Position numbers and translations under genes: made by a program. The notes below the pieces were generated by a model. That model had not been told where the DNA came from. It ran no database searches and saw only the letters and a list, made by a program, of their open reading frames with translations. Below are positions 36,247 through 44,044 of a stretch of 64,000 nucleotides of DNA, in pieces. Position 1 is the first letter of the stretch; each line of letters opens with the position of its first letter. Source of the stretch: Kutzneria viridogrisea (GTDB taxonomy: Bacteria > Actinomycetota > Actinomycetes > Mycobacteriales > Pseudonocardiaceae); assembly GCA_014138725.1 (NCBI GenBank), contig JACJID010000002.1, positions 62,001 through 126,000 on the forward strand, written 5' to 3'.

Positions 36247-36275
36247 GGCTGGCGGGGAGCCACCCCCCGCCAGCC
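36247..36275 (-). terminator. 11-bp GC stem-loop after the sulfur-type operon
   Basis: GGCTGGCGGGG (36247-36257) pairs perfectly with CCCCGCCAGCC (36265-36275) around a 7-nt loop, 9 bp past the last stop codon (36284) of the leftward five-gene operon. Flanking CCGC/GCGG can extend it. There is no U-tract. Confidence 0.65.
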
Positions 36276-36283
36276 AGCGGATA

Positions 36284-36505
36284 TCAGCCGAGCAGCCGGG
36301 CGGGCGCCTGGAGCACCGCCTGGATGGCCCCGAAAACGGGCACACCCAGGGGTGCGAACGTCCAGATGTTGTTCAGGTTGCTCGTGTCGGGCTGGTCCAC
36401 GACGACGACGCCACCACCGGAGGGGGCGGTGTCGGCCATCGCGGGAGCGGCGAACCCGAGCATGGTGGCGGCCAGCAGGGCCGGAACGACGATCTTGCGG
36501 GTCAC
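36284..36505 (-). CDS. Small secreted peptide, last gene of the sulfur-type operon
   Basis: 73 residues from GTG 36505. The signal peptide TRKIVVPALLAATMLGFAAPAMA is followed by a mature peptide of about 48 residues (DTAPSGGGVVVVDQPDTSNL then NNIWTFAPLGVPVFGAIQAV) without cysteines. The C-terminal half is hydrophobic and could associate with a membrane or a partner. No known family is recognised. It starts 17 bp after the stop of the other small secreted gene, so both belong to the same transcript as yedE-like, the membrane protein and the SBP56-like gene. Confidence 0.72.
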   Translation of the reverse strand: MTRKIVVPALLAATMLGFAAPAMADTAPSGGGVVVVDQPDTSNLNNIWTFAPLGVPVFGAIQAVLQAPARLLG

Positions 36506-36522
36506 AGGGAGTACTTCCTCTC

Positions 36523-36726
36523 TCAGCCGTGCAGGAACGTGAGCAGGTGGGCGATCGGGCCGAGCGCCTCGGTCGGCACCGGCACCGTCGGGTCGAGCAC
36601 CGAGCCCAGGTCCACCCCGGGCAGCACGTAGACGGGCGTGCCCGCGTGCGCGATGCCGCCGGTCAACCCGGTGAGCGCAAGCGCGGCGACGGTGCCCGCC
36701 ACCACGCGTGAGACCACTGTGGACAT
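36523..36726 (-). CDS. Small secreted peptide, fourth gene of the sulfur-type operon
   Basis: 67 residues from ATG 36726, preceded by GAAGGAGAGATGA. The signal peptide is STVVSRVVAGTVAALALTGLTGGIAHA; the mature part is about 39 residues (GTPVYVLPGVDLGSVLDPTV ending HLLTFLHG), rich in Pro, Val and Leu, without cysteine or methionine. It shares the general design of the next gene (Ala-signal, then a hydrophobic VPV-containing peptide), suggesting ancient duplication or partner subunits. Function unknown. It lies 26 bp after the transporter gene. Confidence 0.75.
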   Translation of the reverse strand: MSTVVSRVVAGTVAALALTGLTGGIAHAGTPVYVLPGVDLGSVLDPTVPVPTEALGPIAHLLTFLHG

Positions 36727-36752
36727 TCATCTCTCCTTCTCTGGTACGGCAG

Positions 36753-37982
36753 TCAGCACACCGAGTCGGTGGGCTTGGGGTTGCCGAGTCCGAACAGCGG
36801 GCGCAGCCGCACGCCCACGAGGGTCCCGCCGATGGCCATCACGCCCCACAGCCAGCCGTGCAGGCTGAAGGAGGCCACGCCGGAGAAGTAGGCGCCGATG
36901 TTGCAGCCACCGGCCAGCCGGGCACCGAATCCCATGGCGATGCCGCCGAGCACCGCGCCCAGGGCCATCCGCCAGGGCACGGCCCGGTGCAGCACGAAGG
37001 CACCGGCCAGCGCGGAGGCGATCAGCGCGCCGATCATGATGCCGAAGTCCATCACCGACACGCGGTCGGTGAGCACCGAGGCGTGCAGCGCGGCGGCATT
37101 GCGGGGCACGGACCAGTACGGGGCGTGCGAGATGTCGATGCCCACCCAGCCCAGGATTTTGGCCCCCCACAGGGCGAAGGCCGAGGTGATGCCCCAGGGC
37201 CCGCCCGCGACGAACAGGGTCAGCGCGTTCAGGCCCGCCAGCAGCAGGGCGCCGACCCACAGCGGCCAGGCCCCGCGCAGCACCCGCAGCACCCCGTGGG
37301 CGGTGGGCGGCTGCTCGACCGGCGGCGGCTTGCGAAGCCGTTGCACGACAAGTGAGATGCCGACGATCGCGCCGATGATCGCGAACGAGATGAGCAGTCC
37401 ACCGGGGTAGCCCCACGGGGTGGCGGCCAGGTTCACCGTCGGCCCCAGGCTCTGCATGTAGACGATCCAGTCCGCGGCGAAGGCACTGGCGATGGAGCCG
37501 AGCACGAACCCGCCGAGGGTGTAGAGGATCGCGGTCTGCCCGCTGCCCACGGCGAACAGGGTGCCGGAGGCACAGGACCCGCCGACCTGCATGCCGATGC
37601 CGAAGAGGAACGCGCCCAGCGCGACCCCGATGCTGGTCGGCAGCACGGTCCCCTTCGGCACCCCGGACAGGCCCAGCCCGCTGCCCAGGATCACCGCGAA
37701 CAGCAGGCAGGCCACCGCGAGCATGAGCATGTGCGCGCGGATCGCCGCGCCCTGGCCGACCACCACCACCTGCCGCCAGGCCGAGGTGAAGCCGAACCGG
37801 GAGTGGAACAGCACCAGTCCCAGTGCGATCCCGATACCGAACAGGAGGGTCATGATCGGACCCGCCGCGTGATAGACCGCCGAGCCCAGCACGATCGCGA
37901 GCACTACTCCAACCGAGGTCACGCCGACCTTGGCCGAAGGTGCCGGTAAGTGCCGCGGCACCTCGCTGCTGACTGCTGTCAT
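36753..37982 (-). CDS. YeeE/YedE family sulfur-compound transporter
   Basis: 409 residues with about ten hydrophobic segments. The duplicated family signatures with the functional cysteines are present: GIGMQVGGSCASGTLFAVGSG (about 130) and GFGARLAGGCNIGAYFSGVAS (about 360). In TsuA/YeeE of E. coli and Spirochaeta such cysteines pass thiosulfate across the membrane; the YedE branch is linked to selenium metabolism. A central cytosolic linker (LRKPPPVEQPPTAHGVLRV) separates the halves. It starts 12 bp after the upstream Met-rich membrane protein gene. With the sulfur-type leader peptide upstream, uptake of an inorganic or one-carbon sulfur (or selenium) compound is likely. Confidence 0.9.
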   Translation of the reverse strand: MTAVSSEVPRHLPAPSAKVGVTSVGVVLAIVLGSAVYHAAGPIMTLLFGIGIALGLVLFHSRFGFTSAWRQVVVVGQGAAIRAHMLMLAVACLLFAVILGSGLGLSGVPKGTVLPTSIGVALGAFLFGIGMQVGGSCASGTLFAVGSGQTAILYTLGGFVLGSIASAFAADWIVYMQSLGPTVNLAATPWGYPGGLLISFAIIGAIVGISLVVQRLRKPPPVEQPPTAHGVLRVLRGAWPLWVGALLLAGLNALTLFVAGGPWGITSAFALWGAKILGWVGIDISHAPYWSVPRNAAALHASVLTDRVSVMDFGIMIGALIASALAGAFVLHRAVPWRMALGAVLGGIAMGFGARLAGGCNIGAYFSGVASFSLHGWLWGVMAIGGTLVGVRLRPLFGLGNPKPTDSVC

Positions 37983-37994
37983 CGTTCCTCTTTC

Positions 37995-39680
37995 CTAGTC
38001 GGGCAGTGGTCCGGAGATCGGGACGACCGTAGCGCTGGGCACCCACTGACCGGGATAGTTCATGTCCATGCCGTTCATGTGCTCACTCATTTGCATCACG
38101 TCCACCTGCGCGCAGGCGTAGATCCGCACCGGCTCGTCCAGCCGCTGCCCGCGCGCGGCCAGCCAGCGCTGGAACCCGGCCACCGAGGCGCTCTGGCCCT
38201 CGAAGGCGCTGGCCAGGTCCAGGGTGTAGTTCAGAGACCGCTGCTCGCGCGGGTCGAACCGCAGCGGGACCGCCGAGCTGACAACGGATTTGACCAGTGG
38301 GCCGGTCAGCAGCCACGGGGCGAGGTAGACGCCGCGGGTGAAGGTGGGCCGTTCGGTCTGCTCGGTCGCGACCAGGCTCAGTTCGGTCGCTGCCCTGGTC
38401 CAGCCCGACACCAGCAGCAGCGCGTTGTTCGGCGCCTCCTCGGTGACGACCGGGATGTGCACCTGTTCGGCGTTGGCGCGGACCAGCGCGGCGGCGGCCC
38501 GCGCCCGTGGCGACTCGTCCCCGACCAGTGTGATCGCCGGTACGGACTTGCTCGCCAGGAAGCCGATCATCGATCGCAGCGAGTCTGCGTCCTCAGTGGA
38601 CAGTTCATCGGCCGGACAGCTCGCCAGCGCGGCACGCGAACCGCCCAGCAGGCCACCCAGCGCGGCCCCCGCGCACTCCGGGCCGTCCGCGCCGACCGCG
38701 TTGACCTGCAACGGATCCGTTCCAGTATCGACGTCCACAGTGGAGGAAACCCCGTCGCGCTCGACCGTGAGCGTGCTGCGCCCGGCCGGGAGCGTGACCT
38801 CGGCCCAGGCCCCGTCGGCGCCCGGCCTGGACACGGCGGTGACCGGCGGCTCGTCCCCAGCGCGGACCGTCACCGACCCCGCGGGCACGTGCACCAGGTT
38901 GCGGCCGGGGCGCTGCGGGGTGAGCAGCAGCGGCGTGGGCTGTGACACCAGCAGCGGCACGCCGGGGGTGGGCAGGTCCAGTGGCTTGGGCACGGCGATC
39001 AGGGCGCTCCAGGCGACGTAGGCCGCGACGACGACCGTGACGCCGAGCGGGAAGAAGCGGGGCCTGGTCAGCACCAGTGCCGTCACGACCAGGGGCAGCA
39101 CCGCGACGACGATCAGCAGCAGGCCGAACCCGGTGGTGTAGAGCCGACGGTCCAACGCCACCCCGGAGGCGGCGATCTGCACGACCCCGGCCAGCACCAG
39201 CACCGCGGCCAGGGTCAGCGCCACCGGCTTGGGCCGCAGCCGCTCGGGCTGCCAGCCGCCGGTACCCAGCACCGTGATGCCGATCCACAGCACGGCCGCG
39301 ACCGTGTAGGCGGTGTCGGCGAAGAACTCGATGCCCATGTGGTCCAAGGAGATCTCGGACACGAGCACCACGAACAGACCGAACCCGGCGTAGGCGGGCG
39401 CCGAGCGCCAGCGCAGCAGCGGTGGCACCGCCAGGGCCAGCACCAGTTGCACGACCGCGAACACCGGGTTCACCTCGTACACCACAATGGACACAACATC
39501 TGCCACAACCGTTGCGGCGGCGGCAGTCCACGCCAGCACCAGCGCCGGGCGGCGCACCTCGGCCACCGCCGGGCGCACCAGCCCGATGCCCGCGATCGTG
39601 GCACCCGCCAGCAGGAGCAGGATCCTCACCAGCACGGCACCGGCGCTGACGGCCTGGGTGCCCATGTCACTCATGTGCAT
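37995..39680 (-). CDS. Membrane protein with extracytoplasmic domain and Met/His-rich termini
   Basis: 561 residues from ATG 39680 (ribosome site GGAGGACGAG). The N-terminus MHMSDMG and C-terminus VMQMSEHMNGMDMNYPG resemble methionine-rich copper(I)-binding segments. About eight hydrophobic helices fill residues 10-235 (ILLLLAGATIAGIGLV ... VTVVVAAYVAWSALIAV), then an extracytoplasmic region of about 320 residues containing a cysteine pair (GPECAGAALGG, ALASCPADEL) and a late Cys (YACAQVD). From memory it resembles actinobacterial proteins named DUF6239; that must be checked. The SBP56-like gene 55 bp upstream belongs to a copper-enzyme family, so copper delivery or anchoring of that protein is a reasonable guess. 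Confidence 0.72.
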   Translation of the reverse strand: MHMSDMGTQAVSAGAVLVRILLLLAGATIAGIGLVRPAVAEVRRPALVLAWTAAAATVVADVVSIVVYEVNPVFAVVQLVLALAVPPLLRWRSAPAYAGFGLFVVLVSEISLDHMGIEFFADTAYTVAAVLWIGITVLGTGGWQPERLRPKPVALTLAAVLVLAGVVQIAASGVALDRRLYTTGFGLLLIVVAVLPLVVTALVLTRPRFFPLGVTVVVAAYVAWSALIAVPKPLDLPTPGVPLLVSQPTPLLLTPQRPGRNLVHVPAGSVTVRAGDEPPVTAVSRPGADGAWAEVTLPAGRSTLTVERDGVSSTVDVDTGTDPLQVNAVGADGPECAGAALGGLLGGSRAALASCPADELSTEDADSLRSMIGFLASKSVPAITLVGDESPRARAAAALVRANAEQVHIPVVTEEAPNNALLLVSGWTRAATELSLVATEQTERPTFTRGVYLAPWLLTGPLVKSVVSSAVPLRFDPREQRSLNYTLDLASAFEGQSASVAGFQRWLAARGQRLDEPVRIYACAQVDVMQMSEHMNGMDMNYPGQWVPSATVVPISGPLPD

Positions 39681-39735
39681 TCTCGTCCTCCACGGGGGAA
39701 GGCGGGCGGCGCCGCCGGGACGCCGCCCGCCCGCC

Positions 39736-41559
39736 TCACTTCACATCCGCGTCCGCGACCACGAACAGCTCGGAGTGCGGCTTGGCGTTGCCGAAGTCCC
39801 CGTGCGGCCAGGACTTGCGGTTGAAGTTGATGCCGACCTGACCGGAGTTCTCGTCACGGAAAGCCGTGTCCACCGTCAGCTTCCCGTCCTTGCCCAGGTC
39901 GACCATGGTGACCTTGTGGTCACCGTCCAGACCGCTGCGGGCCACGAAGTAGTCCGACACCGCGACCCTGCCGGGCTGGTCGGTCTCGTGGTAGAAACCA
40001 TCGCCCCCCAGCTGGAAGTTGTCGTAGGTGCCCCAGTGCGGACCCTGCCCCGGCTTGCCGGGGTTGATCGCCGCGGCGCCCGCCAGCGTCGGGCAGTCCC
40101 CGCCACCGCCGTTCTCCGCCTTGGCCTTCGTGTCGATGGTGCAGGTGTAGTTGTCACCGGCGGCCAGCAGCTTGGAGATGTCCAGCGTGTAGACCCCGCC
40201 CACCGTGCCGGGGTCGTCCGAGCCGAGCGTGCCCTTCTGCCGTCCGATCACCGCGTGGTACAGGTAGTGGTCGTCCGGGCTGGTCTGCACCCAGCCGCCG
40301 TTGCTGCTGGAGCCGACGCTGTCGGCCTTGGCGTCGAAGGACTTGTTCGCCGCGCCGTCGTCGAACACCTCACGCCAGTGCGGCTGGGCCGCGGTGATGT
40401 CGGGGGTGTAGAAGATCGCACCGCCCTGCATCGTCTGTGCGAAGGCACCCTTGTGACCGGGCAGGTTGGTCACCGTGGTCTCCATGACCGCCCGGCTCTC
40501 CGCGTGCAGCGGGTCCGCCGGGTTGGCCCTGGGCCCGTCCTGCAGGTAGGACACCGCCTTGAGCTTCGGGTGGTTGCGGTCGGAGATGTCCCAGGTGCGG
40601 ATGGTCGGCCGCCGCAGGTACGGGGAGGGCTGCTTGACCGGGTCCAGGATGATGTTGCGCGGCTCCGCGTAGTCACTGGTGACCATCGTGTTCAGGTCCT
40701 CGCGGGCCTGGATGCCGTGCGGGTTGGCGCAGGTGGGCGCGCCCAGCCTGGGCAGGTCGTCGCAGAGTTTCTCGTTGTCTCCCTGCGGGGTCGCCGCCGG
40801 GGACTGGGAGAGCACCTTGCCGTCCTTGTCGAAGTGCACGACCTCACCGGGACTGCCCGCGAAGCCGTTGCCGATCTGCACCGAGCCGTTGTCGTAGATG
40901 TAGGGCCCTGGCACGACCGGGCCACCCATGTAGGTGCCGTAGGCCGTGCCGTCCTTGAGCGTCCAGTACGCGTCGGGCACCGACCCGCCCAGCGTCTGGC
41001 TGGGCAGGCTGATCCCCTTGAGCTTCAGGTTCGGCAGCGCGCTGACGTCGAAGGCGTAGGTCGCCGCCGCGAACAGCGCGCCCGCGTAGATGGTGTCGCC
41101 CTTGTGCCACACGTACTGCATGTGGTGCGGCTCGTTCTCCACCAGCGGGCCGACGGTGGCCGTGTTGACCACCTTGCCGTAGGTCGGCGAGCCCTTGGTG
41201 GCGTCGATGACGGCGAGGAAGTCCGGTCCGGGCAGGGCGCCGGGCAGCTTGTTCACCACGCCGCCGACGGTCCCGGGCAGGTTCTTGATGTCGGACACCG
41301 CCGTGTCGGCGATGTTCTCGTCACCGGCCCAGACCAGCAGCCACTCCTTGCGCTGTTCCTGCCGGGCCGCGTACTTGCCCACCAGGTGGTTGGTGACCGT
41401 GTAGTCCTTGCCGTCGGCGCCCGCCACGTGCTGGGTGGACACCTGCACGTCGGCGTAGGCGCTGGTGCCGGCGATGGGGAAGGTGACGGCCGCGGCGGCG
41501 ACCAGGACGGCCGCCGCACCGGTGCGCACCCTCCTCCCGCCGAGCGATTTCAGGGGCAT
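39736..41559 (-). CDS. Secreted SBP56 / methanethiol-oxidase-like protein
   Basis: 607 residues. Signal peptide: RRVRTGAAAVLVAAAAVTFPIAGTSAYA. The body matches the selenium-binding-protein-56 beta-propeller: PDFLAVIDATKGSPTYGKVV, ENEPHHMQYVWHKGDTIYAGAL, CANPHGIQAREDLNTMVTSDYAEPRN, RTWDISDRNHPKLKAV, and the terminal KPHSELFVVAD. Several conserved His (NEPHHMQ, NPHG, KPHSEL) correspond to metal-site positions in bacterial methanethiol oxidase (MtoX), a periplasmic copper enzyme that turns methanethiol into formaldehyde, hydrogen peroxide and sulfide. It is longer than MtoX (about 430-460), with insertions. It is the first structural gene of the operon, 194 bp after the leader peptide. The substrate is inference. 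Confidence 0.8.
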   Translation of the reverse strand: MPLKSLGGRRVRTGAAAVLVAAAAVTFPIAGTSAYADVQVSTQHVAGADGKDYTVTNHLVGKYAARQEQRKEWLLVWAGDENIADTAVSDIKNLPGTVGGVVNKLPGALPGPDFLAVIDATKGSPTYGKVVNTATVGPLVENEPHHMQYVWHKGDTIYAGALFAAATYAFDVSALPNLKLKGISLPSQTLGGSVPDAYWTLKDGTAYGTYMGGPVVPGPYIYDNGSVQIGNGFAGSPGEVVHFDKDGKVLSQSPAATPQGDNEKLCDDLPRLGAPTCANPHGIQAREDLNTMVTSDYAEPRNIILDPVKQPSPYLRRPTIRTWDISDRNHPKLKAVSYLQDGPRANPADPLHAESRAVMETTVTNLPGHKGAFAQTMQGGAIFYTPDITAAQPHWREVFDDGAANKSFDAKADSVGSSSNGGWVQTSPDDHYLYHAVIGRQKGTLGSDDPGTVGGVYTLDISKLLAAGDNYTCTIDTKAKAENGGGGDCPTLAGAAAINPGKPGQGPHWGTYDNFQLGGDGFYHETDQPGRVAVSDYFVARSGLDGDHKVTMVDLGKDGKLTVDTAFRDENSGQVGINFNRKSWPHGDFGNAKPHSELFVVADADVK

Positions 41560-41753
41560 CGGATCTCCGTGTTCTGAATGGGTCGTCGAACTGAACCGGC
41601 CGCACCGGAAATGGGCACGGCTCTCCCCCGGGCGAACGGCGACGATCGACCGGGAAAGGCGGAGTTCACCACCGTGAACAGCAGGTCCAGGCGCGCGTCA
41701 GCGCAGGCCGAATGGACCCGGAATAGGGGTGGCGTGAGGGGTGAAAGGGGTCC
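41560..41753 (-). promoter_or_regulatory. Leader RNA between sulfur-type leader peptide and SBP56-like gene
   Basis: This 194-nt untranslated stretch begins with a hairpin: on the minus strand GGTCC-GCTGA-GGACC overlaps the last codons and stop of the leader peptide. Ribosome position at the leader's Cys/stop codons could therefore alter downstream structure or expression. The SBP56-like ORF starts at its end with a weak CGGAGAT site. Confidence 0.55.
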
Positions 41754-41834
41754 TCAGCGGACCGGACAGAGAGCGCTCGCCTGGAGCTGCAAATCAACGT
41801 GTCGGCGAGTCGCCAGAGAGACACCGCGCATCAT
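41754..41834 (-). CDS. Sulfur-type leader peptide (26 residues)
   Basis: The peptide starts with a double ATG and contains TRRHVDLQLQASALCPVR, ending in a Cys-Pro-Val-Arg stop. Short ORFs with an R-R-H-V-D-L core and a late Cys are known as putative leader peptides in front of sulfur-assimilation and cysteine genes in Streptomyces and relatives. There is no ribosome site. The start codon lies 7 bp after a plausible -10 element, as expected for leaderless translation. It is read toward the SBP56-like operon. The peptide probably acts as a cysteine- or sulfur-responsive attenuator and is unlikely to have a structural role. Confidence 0.78.
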   Translation of the reverse strand: MMRGVSLATRRHVDLQLQASALCPVR

Positions 41835-41841
41835 GGCTAAG

Positions 41842-41870
41842 AGAGTGGAGCAATCGGAGCAACTTGTCAA
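41842..41870 (-). promoter_or_regulatory. Predicted leaderless promoter of the sulfur-type operon
   Basis: On the minus strand TTGACA (41870-41865) is followed by a 17-bp spacer and CACTCT (41847-41842), then 7 bp to the leader-peptide ATG at 41834. The -35 is consensus and the -10 is weak. The spacing puts transcription start on or next to the A of the ATG. Confidence 0.65.
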
Positions 41871-41941: not shown

Positions 41942-41980
41942 AAAAAGCGGCGCCGTTCCCGGTGATGGGAACGGCGCCGC
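41942..41980 (-). terminator. Rho-independent terminator of the GH27 gene
   Basis: GCGGCGCCGTTCCC (41947-41960) pairs perfectly over 14 bp with 41967-41980 around a 6-nt loop. On the minus strand it is followed by a run of five T (41946-41942). It lies 18 bp past the GH27 stop and separates it from the sulfur-type operon. Confidence 0.93.
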
Positions 41981-41997: not shown

Positions 41998-43896
41998 TCA
42001 TCTGATGAACGGGGCCGACCAGGTTTGGTTGTTCTGCAACGATCCGGCCGCGGCACAGGTGTAGACGTCCACCGGGGTACTGGCCGTCGAGGTGCTGCCG
42101 CCGTACACGTCCAGGCACAGCGCGGTCCCGGACAGCTTGAGCTGACCGTCCCTGGTGTAGTCCCACTTCTGCGAGGAGGGCGCGGATCCGCACCCGGCCA
42201 CGCCGACGAACCGGCCGCTGGCCCCGTTGACGGGACTGGTCGAGGTGCCGCTCCGCGCGGTCAGGCACAGGCCGTTGGCCAGCTTGACCGTGCCGTCGGC
42301 GTTGCGGGTCCAGCGCTGGTTCGCGCCGCTGGTGCACTGGTACACCACGACCGGGTTGTTGGCCGCGGTGCCGGAGGCGTAGTTGTCCAGGCAGAGTGCG
42401 GCCTTGCCCCAGTCGCCGCGGGCCACGGTGATCTGCCCGGTGGGCGCGAACGAACAGCCCTTCACCTTCAGCATGGCGTTGTCGTGCGAGCCGATCGTCA
42501 GCGGCACGGTCCCGGTGGAGGTGCTGTCGGTGTGCGCCCACAGGTCGCGCACGGAGTAGGTGCAGCCGGTGCCACTGAAACCCAAGTCCGACAAGGACAA
42601 GCTGTATTTGGTCGCGGCGGATCCCTTGTTCAGCACGACAACCGCGCGACTGCCGTCGGCAAGCTGCTTGACCACCACGTCGATCCCGCTGGCACTGGAC
42701 GGGGTGCCGTCGGACCTGGCGGCACCGCCGGACACCCGGTAGCCGCCCGCGCCGAGCGGGTCCTGGTCCACGGCGAGGACCTCGGCGTTGCCCAGGGTCC
42801 TGATCGACTCGCGCAGGTGCGCGGCCTGGTCCGGGTGTGCGTCCAAATAGGACGGTGTGAACTTGCGCGCGTCGGTGCTGATGAACAGCGGGGCCGCCAT
42901 CGCCGACCACAGGGCGAGCTGGCTGCGTTCCTCGGCGCTGGACATGCCGTTGTCCCCGATGAGCAGCATGTCCGCGTCGTTCCAGTTGCCCGGCGACTGG
43001 TAGCGGGCCAGGTCCACGGTCGTGTCGAAGCTCTGGTACGCACCGAAGTTGTAGCCGGACAACGCCTTGTCCCACGGATCGGTGCTGGCGGCGTAATTCC
43101 AGATGTCCGGGCCGACCCGCCACTGCTGACCGTGGTCGCGCACCCAGTTCATCACGTCGAACTTGGTGGCCCCGTTGTTGTACGCGGCGGGCGCGGACTC
43201 GTTGAACAGCACGTTGGGCGTCTTCCTGCCGCCCGCCGCGGCGTTGCCGACCGCGGTGGCCAGCGCGGCGCTCATCCGCCCGTCCAGGGTCTTCAGCGGC
43301 TCCTTGGTCTGGCAGTTGTCGTACTTGAGCGCGTCAACTCCCCAGTACACAAAGGAGTTCGCGTCGTCCTGCTCGTGGTACTCGCTGCCGGTGGCGGTGT
43401 TCGGCGTGGTGCTGCACGTGTTCGTGCCCGAGCTCTCGTAGATGCCGAACTTCAGCCCGAGGCCGTGCAGGTAGTCCCCGTAGTCGGTGAGCTCGTAGTC
43501 GAACCCCGGCTGACTGGAGCCGCCCCAGGTGGTGGCCCCGTGCAGGTAGCCCGCGGCGGTGCGCCGCATCCAGCAGTCGTCCACGGTGATCGTCTGGTAC
43601 CCGGCGGCGGCCAGTCCGCTGTCCACGAGCCCCTTGGCGTTGTCCTTCATGTACTGCTGGAACGAGTAGCTCGCGGTGGGCGAGCCGTCCAGCGGGGCCT
43701 GGGCGGCGCAGGTGGACCGGGCCCAGTTGTTGAAGCCCATCGGCGGCACGGGGGCGATCGCGCTGGCGGGCGTGGCCGCGGAGCTGTAGTTGGTGGCGGG
43801 TTGGCTCACGCCATCGTTGGCGTGCGCGGGGACGGCACCGAGCAGGGCGAGTCCCAGCACGGCGGGGGTGAGCACGCGTAGGCGACCACGGGCCAT
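41998..43896 (-). CDS. Secreted GH27 alpha-galactosidase with C-terminal ricin-type (CBM13) lectin domain
   Basis: 632 residues from ATG 43896 with AAGGAG eight bases upstream; an ATG further up (43950) lacks such a site. The signal peptide is ARGRLRVLTPAVLGLALLGAVPAHA. The GH27 barrel shows PPMGFNNWARSTC, YQTITVDDCWM, LKFGIYESSGTNTC, GVDALKYDNC (nucleophile Asp) and WRVGPDIWN (acid/base Asp), then a beta-sandwich. From about residue 500 come beta-trefoil repeats (LCLDNYASGTAANNPVVVYQC, QRWTRNADGTVKLANGLCL, KWDYTRDGQLKLSGTALCLDV). It releases terminal alpha-galactose (or N-acetylgalactosamine) from plant polysaccharides. It is divergent from a LacI-type regulator that probably controls it. 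Confidence 0.95.
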   Translation of the reverse strand: MARGRLRVLTPAVLGLALLGAVPAHANDGVSQPATNYSSAATPASAIAPVPPMGFNNWARSTCAAQAPLDGSPTASYSFQQYMKDNAKGLVDSGLAAAGYQTITVDDCWMRRTAAGYLHGATTWGGSSQPGFDYELTDYGDYLHGLGLKFGIYESSGTNTCSTTPNTATGSEYHEQDDANSFVYWGVDALKYDNCQTKEPLKTLDGRMSAALATAVGNAAAGGRKTPNVLFNESAPAAYNNGATKFDVMNWVRDHGQQWRVGPDIWNYAASTDPWDKALSGYNFGAYQSFDTTVDLARYQSPGNWNDADMLLIGDNGMSSAEERSQLALWSAMAAPLFISTDARKFTPSYLDAHPDQAAHLRESIRTLGNAEVLAVDQDPLGAGGYRVSGGAARSDGTPSSASGIDVVVKQLADGSRAVVVLNKGSAATKYSLSLSDLGFSGTGCTYSVRDLWAHTDSTSTGTVPLTIGSHDNAMLKVKGCSFAPTGQITVARGDWGKAALCLDNYASGTAANNPVVVYQCTSGANQRWTRNADGTVKLANGLCLTARSGTSTSPVNGASGRFVGVAGCGSAPSSQKWDYTRDGQLKLSGTALCLDVYGGSTSTASTPVDVYTCAAAGSLQNNQTWSAPFIR

Positions 43897-44044
43897 CCAG
43901 ACCACTCCTTGTTTGCACAAAGTTGCGCGCATCAACGCATTGGCGAGCATGTTTGCTCACGGACTGAGCGCCCGCAAGAGTCAGGGGGTCGGGAAGAAGC
44001 CCTGGATCGGTCGAGGCGACGGCCCACGCGTGCACTTCCAGCGA

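Follow-up and report, generated by a model that had tools for sequence, protein, structure and literature searches.

The locus analyzed here raises the question of what process could unite, in a single operon, a propeller protein, a membrane protein, a putative sulfur carrier, and two very small peptides. It lies in a stretch of 64,000 nucleotides from Kutzneria viridogrisea (contig JACJID010000002.1, positions 62,001 to 126,000), which is called the window below and whose own numbering is used throughout. Five open reading frames follow each other on the minus strand: the genes of a 607-residue, remotely SBP56-related protein with a predicted seven-bladed propeller and a signal-like N terminus (SBP-like protein; 39736-41559), a 561-residue membrane protein (MEM; 37995-39680), a 409-residue YeeE/YedE (Sulf_transp) transporter (YedE; 36753-37982), and two peptides whose N termini look signal-like by eye, S1 (67 residues; 36523-36726) and S2 (73 residues, GTG start; 36284-36505). 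The answer we favor is that the operon serves the extracytoplasmic, copper-dependent oxidation of thiols or other organosulfur compounds for sulfur scavenging; judged from sequence, the chances for and against this reading are evenly balanced, with methanethiol as the leading, unproven candidate substrate.

The five genes do not form a chance assembly peculiar to one genome. From a single scan of named genomes we kept 80 loci with SBP-like relatives, found in Amycolatopsis (33 loci), Saccharopolyspora (17 loci) and, for the rest, in other Pseudonocardiales, Nocardioides, an Actinoplanes-type genome, Actinomadura, and Streptomyces. In 77 of the 80 loci, MEM (detected by tblastn at E<=0.01) lies downstream of the SBP-like gene in the same orientation; S1 is present in 55, always on the same strand and downstream, and S2 in 62 (55 on the same strand, 7 on the opposite one, 61 downstream). 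The gene order thus recurs in other genera, and the co-conservation expected by the sequence-only reading, an earlier interpretation made from the letters of the window, holds. The surroundings differ: many Amycolatopsis loci lie beside rpsL, rpsG, and fusA, most Saccharopolyspora loci beside dapB, and those of Kutzneria beside other genes, so that the association goes beyond general synteny. YedE was detected in 32 of the 80 loci and is, on this comparison, an optional member of the module. In seven loci (L019, L024, L028, L052, L059, L063, and L064) S2 adjoins the operon but is read in the other direction and would therefore be transcribed separately.

A similar picture emerged from 60 genomes of relatives. 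The SBP-like gene occurs in 15 of them (10 genera) and MEM in 18, including all 15; the three relatives with MEM and no SBP-like gene are G012, where MEM lies at the edge of a contig and is followed by YedE, and G026 and G028, whose matches are weak. S2 was found in 11 relatives, every one SBP-bearing, and YedE in 23, that is, in 14 of the 15 SBP-bearing genomes and in 9 others. At the genus level, MEM accompanies the SBP-like gene in 10/10 genera and occurs in 3 more (hypergeometric p 2e-8), all six genera with S2 hold the SBP-like gene (p 1e-5), and the corresponding value for YedE is 1e-4; these p values are guides only, since genera are not independent. Phylum-wide, hits to a profile of the family came from 4 of 396 genomes, the own one among them, with at most three candidates scored per genome, and the family looks patchy in its distribution. 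The matches that one Streptomyces homologue gave on six plasmid records are annotated as 'hypothetical protein' in all six cases, and in Umezawaea two SBP-like genes stand in tandem (L087:9911-13421). The titles and abstract openings of the literature searched, which lay mostly outside subscription papers, contain no description of this gene combination.

The clearest indication of the physiological context comes from the region upstream of the SBP-like gene, where a minus-strand reading frame (41754-41831) encodes MRGVSLATRRHVDLQLQASALCPVR, a probable cysteine-responsive leader peptide; its presence at the operon head had been claimed from the sequence alone and was confirmed. The peptide matches the leader model NF042934 with 20 bits (E 0.00039), below the cut-off of 27 bits. 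A leader of the type R[RL]HVDLxxQASAL(C) was identified within 650 base pairs (bp) upstream of the SBP-like gene in 52 of the 80 loci, 48 times with a terminal Cys. The pattern, which was refined after a first look at the loci, did not arise once when upstream regions were base-shuffled (8000 shuffled regions), and the 1.65 Mb of locus DNA contained no further copy. The leaders of L043, L060, L071, and L075 have no Cys after the QASAL-type segment, with an earlier Cys in L043 and L071 and none in the shown part of L060 and L075; the signal that these four sense may be a different one.

Leaders of the same kind precede other genes of the own genome. A DNA pattern for the leader core occurs there at 14 places and the reversed pattern at 10, which leaves the raw count with little weight. 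Eight of the 14 places, however, are short frames whose end lies no more than 18 codons from where the motif begins, and in all eight a Cys follows the motif. These are the leader of the window and seven others, for which the first downstream gene was examined (about 1.5 kb each, frames of up to 400 residues). The seven genes encode an O-acetylhomoserine/O-acetylserine sulfhydrylase (709 vs. a cut-off of 703 bits), the dimethylsulfone monooxygenase SfnG (624.6 vs. 383 bits), a protein of the nitrite/sulfite reductase family (score below the cut-off, with ferredoxin-nitrite reductase as the best name), an SsuC-like permease (242 vs. 347 bits), an amino-acid permease whose nearest model is that of the cystine permease (146 vs. 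300 bits), an OsmC-like protein (80 vs. 95 bits; by eye, a sulfhydrylase-like frame lies behind it), and a winged-helix regulator matched by many OmpR-type models, copper-type ones included. Equivalog cut-offs were passed only by the sulfhydrylase and SfnG, and the position of SfnG behind such a leader suggests that the own genome also uses dimethylsulfone. The expectation that an RRHVDL...C leader marks sulfur genes was borne out in this way. One of the Cys-bearing leaders, on contig C4 (L146, around 1257687), stands before a frame of 190 residues whose product has an OmpR-type DNA-binding domain and is a candidate sulfur regulator.

Sulfur genes also occur around the SBP-like gene in other genomes. 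A sulfite-reductase-type gene follows the SBP-like gene and MEM in 6 of the 80 loci (five in Streptomyces, one in Saccharothrix), and a CysH-type gene was found in 5, together with CysN-like and SsuA/SsuC-like genes (Pfam check on L083 only). Elsewhere, the SBP-like gene has a cysteine dioxygenase gene at a distance of about 4 kb (L159) or, immediately upstream, the gene of a rhodanese-domain protein (L078). Sulfur control of the operon is well supported by these comparisons, and the operon appears to be induced at low cysteine.

What, then, is the SBP-like protein itself? Its predicted fold has the SBP56 structure 2ece as the top Foldseek match (E 1.3e-15), which fits a seven-bladed propeller; an SBP56 match at E<=0.1 was obtained for 33 of the 34 family members in the alignment, the best at 1.3e-5, and profile-profile comparison with 21 canonical SBP56 sequences gave 92.8% in local mode and 96.8% over 412 columns in global mode. 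In the profile alignment the HH pair of the family falls on the HH of SBP56, and H595 on the C-terminal His. The pair H145-H146 is present in all 34 aligned members and in 11/11 sequences of another set that includes three distant ones; H281, H508, H548, and H586 are likewise found in 34/34, and H508 also in the three distant proteins. H595 (11/11) and E360 (at least 90% of the 11) fall on the C-terminal His and on E252 of SELENBP1 by hhalign realignment only; since the longer alignments come from that step, blade-by-blade matching of ligands is of low confidence. Where the HxxH(C) motif would align, the window protein has no His; one study describes this motif as present in all of its SBPs except the bacterial methanethiol oxidase (MTO) outgroup (PMC10277263). 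No CSSC was found after the HH, where the protein reads HHMQYVWHKG. Remote homology to SBP56 is supported by the predicted fold and the profiles, and the metal site is probably rearranged, because the HH is kept, the HxxH is lost, and other His residues are invariant.

Copper enters the argument through MEM. Eight long N-terminal helices (residues 13-229) are followed in this protein by a beta domain (about 240-320) and a type-1 binding-protein-like domain (about 330-561); the latter region contains a His/Met-rich loop (524-546), and such a loop is present in all 29 aligned MEM proteins. The membrane part is much shorter in Streptomyces-type loci. In two distant genomes the SBP-like gene is adjoined by fusions of CopC, CopD, and Peripla_BP_6 in open frames of about 1000 residues (L158:1924-5127 and L159:4757-7759, both on the minus strand), whose CopC parts score 51.3 and 52.7 bits vs. 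23.3. This architecture is not known to have been described. The MEM profile matches the fusions with 92% (E 6.7e-7, 217 columns), and MEM looks like a CopD-type membrane block joined to a type-1 binding-protein-like domain; the fusions are, at the level of gene neighborhood, an independent copper link. A PpoB2 copper chaperone is encoded upstream of the SBP-like gene in a third distant locus (L160; 173.4 vs. 28.7 bits). The same locus contains, near these two genes, a small Cys-rich protein (L160:5685-6128, minus strand) that is copper-storage-like by eye and has no Pfam match. The sequence-only reading had described MEM as a Met-rich, copper-handling membrane protein: the copper link stands by virtue of the CopC-CopD fusions, and the description as Met-rich falls short of a protein that appears to have a CopD-type block and a binding-protein-like domain.

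The CopC-CopD fusions and the PpoB2 chaperone would suit one of the two main rivals of the favored reading, namely copper acquisition, with the SBP-like propeller acting as a non-enzymatic extracytoplasmic copper chaperone that feeds the CopD-like MEM; control by cysteine would then reflect a link between the supply of thiols and the handling of copper. The His/Met-rich loop of MEM agrees with this role, as does the propeller AztD among the Foldseek matches of the SBP-like protein (6n01, E 1.6e-7, rank 48), which we take to be a zinc metallochaperone. Against it, SBP56 is both the top fold match and the profile relative, the Streptomyces and Saccharothrix loci have neighbors of the sulfate-assimilation type, YedE belongs to a sulfur carrier family, and in the 1.5 kb or so behind each of the seven other leaders no copper transport or copper enzyme gene comes first, even though the regulator there also scores with copper-type models. 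We consider copper acquisition rather unlikely.

That YedE is a carrier of the YeeE/YedE type, as claimed from the sequence alone, was confirmed: residues 60-388 match PF04143 with 212.5 bits (gathering threshold 27), and the protein is the sole match to this family in its genome. Its Cys residues align with Cys91 (GGSCASG) and Cys293 (AGGCNIG) of TsuA, the positions of the transport Cys according to a report in which YeeE/YedE proteins are carriers of thiosulfate or sulfur (PMC11582611). The protein stays below the cut-offs of the TsuA and YedE/FdhT models, the selenium-linked YedE/FdhT being its best NCBIfam match. This match (143 bits) could be combined with the name of the selenium-binding proteins into an operon of selenium metabolism, the alternative raised by the sequence-only reading. 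Such a role is highly improbable: the score is far below the cut-off of 350, the best SelD match in the genome reaches 62.5 bits where 125 are required, and the leader and the neighbors are of the sulfur-assimilation type.

The carrier also bears on the second main rival, in which the SBP-like protein would act, by oxidation or transfer, on sulfide, sulfite, thiosulfate, or sulfane sulfur, with YedE as the importer of thiosulfate or sulfur. Besides the carrier family with its two retained Cys, this rival has on its side the rhodanese-domain protein of L078, the altered His set, which suggests altered chemistry, and the sulfane sulfur reported as a product of a Rhodobacteraceae MTO (PMC10936201). 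However, the SBP56-family enzyme SELENBP1 acts on alkyl thiols (PMC10362175), SfnG behind the same kind of leader points to the use of organosulfur compounds, and YedE was not found beside the SBP-like gene in 48 of the 80 loci. A different sulfur substrate seems to us no more probable than the copper chaperone role.

The two peptides are conserved in their mature parts, with the segments PGVDLG and LP..LAP in S1 and VDEPDT and TFAPLGVPV in S2, and yielded no family above cut-off in Pfam and NCBIfam; they are predicted to be conserved accessory parts. A further small protein is encoded after S1/S2 in L054 (14232-14720) and in 18 other Amycolatopsis loci, the L054 copy being a weak match to Mycobact_memb (PF05423, 22.1 vs. 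21 bits). Two conserved peptides without a known family and the type-1 binding-protein-like domain of MEM could also belong to a structural or signaling surface complex, in which the propeller and this domain would serve as sensors of a ligand outside the cell, with the peptides assembled at the surface and no catalysis. We regard such a complex as improbable, given that the strict conservation of multiple His residues and the copper genes next to distant relatives favor a metal protein.

Several observations weigh against the favored reading of a copper-dependent oxidation. The simple SBP56 model match, which the sequence-only reading had named as a refutation test, fails: the window protein scores 16.9 bits against PF05694 (gathering threshold 34), over residues 111-148 only, and 24.3 bits against the MtoX model NF052453 (cut-off 650). 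Family membership in SBP56, as originally claimed, is thus retained as remote homology and lost at the level of both cut-offs and of the HxxH motif. Without realignment hhalign covers 35 columns only (112-147, around the HH), and, compared with the residues given as essential for human SELENBP1 (PMC10362175), the HxxH pair is without counterpart and the Asp aligns beside H281 rather than with it. Beta-propellers are versatile, and the fold matches include lactonases as well as a metallochaperone. For MEM, direct BLASTP with one fusion was not significant (E 1.2), the CopD parts of the fusions score just under their cut-off (29.0 and 31.3 vs. 32.1), Pfam gave no CopD (PF05425) match, either for the window protein or in the families assigned to the 29 aligned MEM proteins, and Foldseek returned no PDB match below 0.001; explicit copper neighbors were seen in three distant loci only. 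No leader was found upstream of the SBP-like gene in 28 of the 80 loci (all loci of Streptomyces, Actinomadura, Prauserella, and Saccharothrix, 9 of the 33 of Amycolatopsis, and individual loci in several further genera), the terminal Cys is missing from 4 of the 52 leaders, and the 48 loci without a detected YedE count here as well.

The layout of the operon agrees with that proposed from the sequence alone. By open reading frame coordinates, all five genes are on the minus strand, with 55, 12, 26, and 17 bp between consecutive genes from the SBP-like gene to S2, and the 11-bp hairpin at the operon end is a perfect inverted repeat without a T run, 3' of S2 on the same strand (36247-36275; arms 36247-36257 and 36265-36275; fold z = -3.1). 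An intrinsic-terminator-like site on the minus strand (41947-41980; 14-bp GC-rich stem and T run), located 3' of the preceding gene (41998-43950), is predicted to set the operon apart from that gene; four such sites were found between 36000 and 42100 vs. 1.8 expected, and its stem is the longest by far. The promoter proposed for the operon head was not recovered, as a sigma-70-type scan gave 0 sites (0.3 expected by chance), other promoter types being outside that scan.

Taken as a mechanism, the favored oxidation would proceed as follows. Translation of the leader would report the cysteine supply and control the operon, as part of a same-leader set made up mostly of sulfur genes, a step supported by sequence comparison. 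The exported SBP-like propeller would act as a copper enzyme that oxidizes a small thiol, methanethiol being the leading candidate, or another organosulfur compound outside the membrane, using the invariant H145, H146, H508, and H595 and the nearly invariant H281, and would yield sulfide or sulfane sulfur. MEM, viewed as an anchor of the CopD type that carries a His/Met-rich loop and a binding-protein-like domain, would load copper into this enzyme or hand over its substrate; this step draws on the independent copper link. YedE, where present, would bring in the sulfur product, which sulfhydrylases under the same kind of leader would fix into cysteine or homocysteine. More tentatively, and with somewhat less confidence than in the general function, we propose a previously unrecognized family of secreted actinobacterial copper enzymes, distant from SBP56, with a repositioned multi-His site, metallated by a CopC/CopD-derived, binding-protein-fused MEM, mining organosulfur compounds under cysteine starvation, and equipped with two small secreted subunits not seen before.

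Actinobacteria are abundant in soils, where much of the sulfur is organic. If the proposal is true, a cysteine-controlled extracytoplasmic copper oxidase would constitute a new route for freeing soil organic sulfur, chemistry like that of methanethiol oxidase would extend to a clade missed by the MtoX and SBP56 models, and copper supply would be tied to sulfur nutrition. The divergent His set would be a natural experiment on which histidines of SBP56 proteins matter, a question studied for human SELENBP1.

Four known systems can be compared with the module. With MtoX of Hyphomicrobium (PMC5739008) and human SELENBP1 (PMC10362175), the window protein shares the seven-bladed propeller, the HH, a link to copper and sulfur, and, at low confidence, alignable positions of the C-terminal His and the Glu; MtoX is periplasmic, and the window protein likewise has a signal-like N terminus. 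It differs from these in its scores far below both cut-offs, the lack of HxxH, the extra H281, H508, H548, and H586, its other partner genes, its control by a leader, and the lack of SCO1/SenC near the gene, the only SCO1 match of the genome being on contig C3 and the window on C2. The CopCD/YcnJ copper importers appear to resemble MEM, by profile comparison with the L158/L159 fusions, in the CopD-like transmembrane block and the juxtamembrane beta domain, whereas MEM is matched by neither CopC nor CopD in Pfam, includes a domain like that of type-1 binding proteins and, in its Streptomyces-type form, has a much shorter membrane part. With TsuA/SoxT of the YeeE/YedE family the window carrier shares PF04143 over nearly its full length and the Cys91- and Cys293-type positions, and it differs in its length of 409 residues, its place in an operon with an SBP56-like protein, and its scores below the model cut-offs. 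Finally, the actinobacterial Cys leaders (NF042934, NF042936) have the same RRHVDL core, a Cys in the terminal region, and a location upstream of sulfur genes, whereas the window leader scores under 27 bits and the SBP-type leaders share a variant of their own, R[RL]HVDLxxQASALC.

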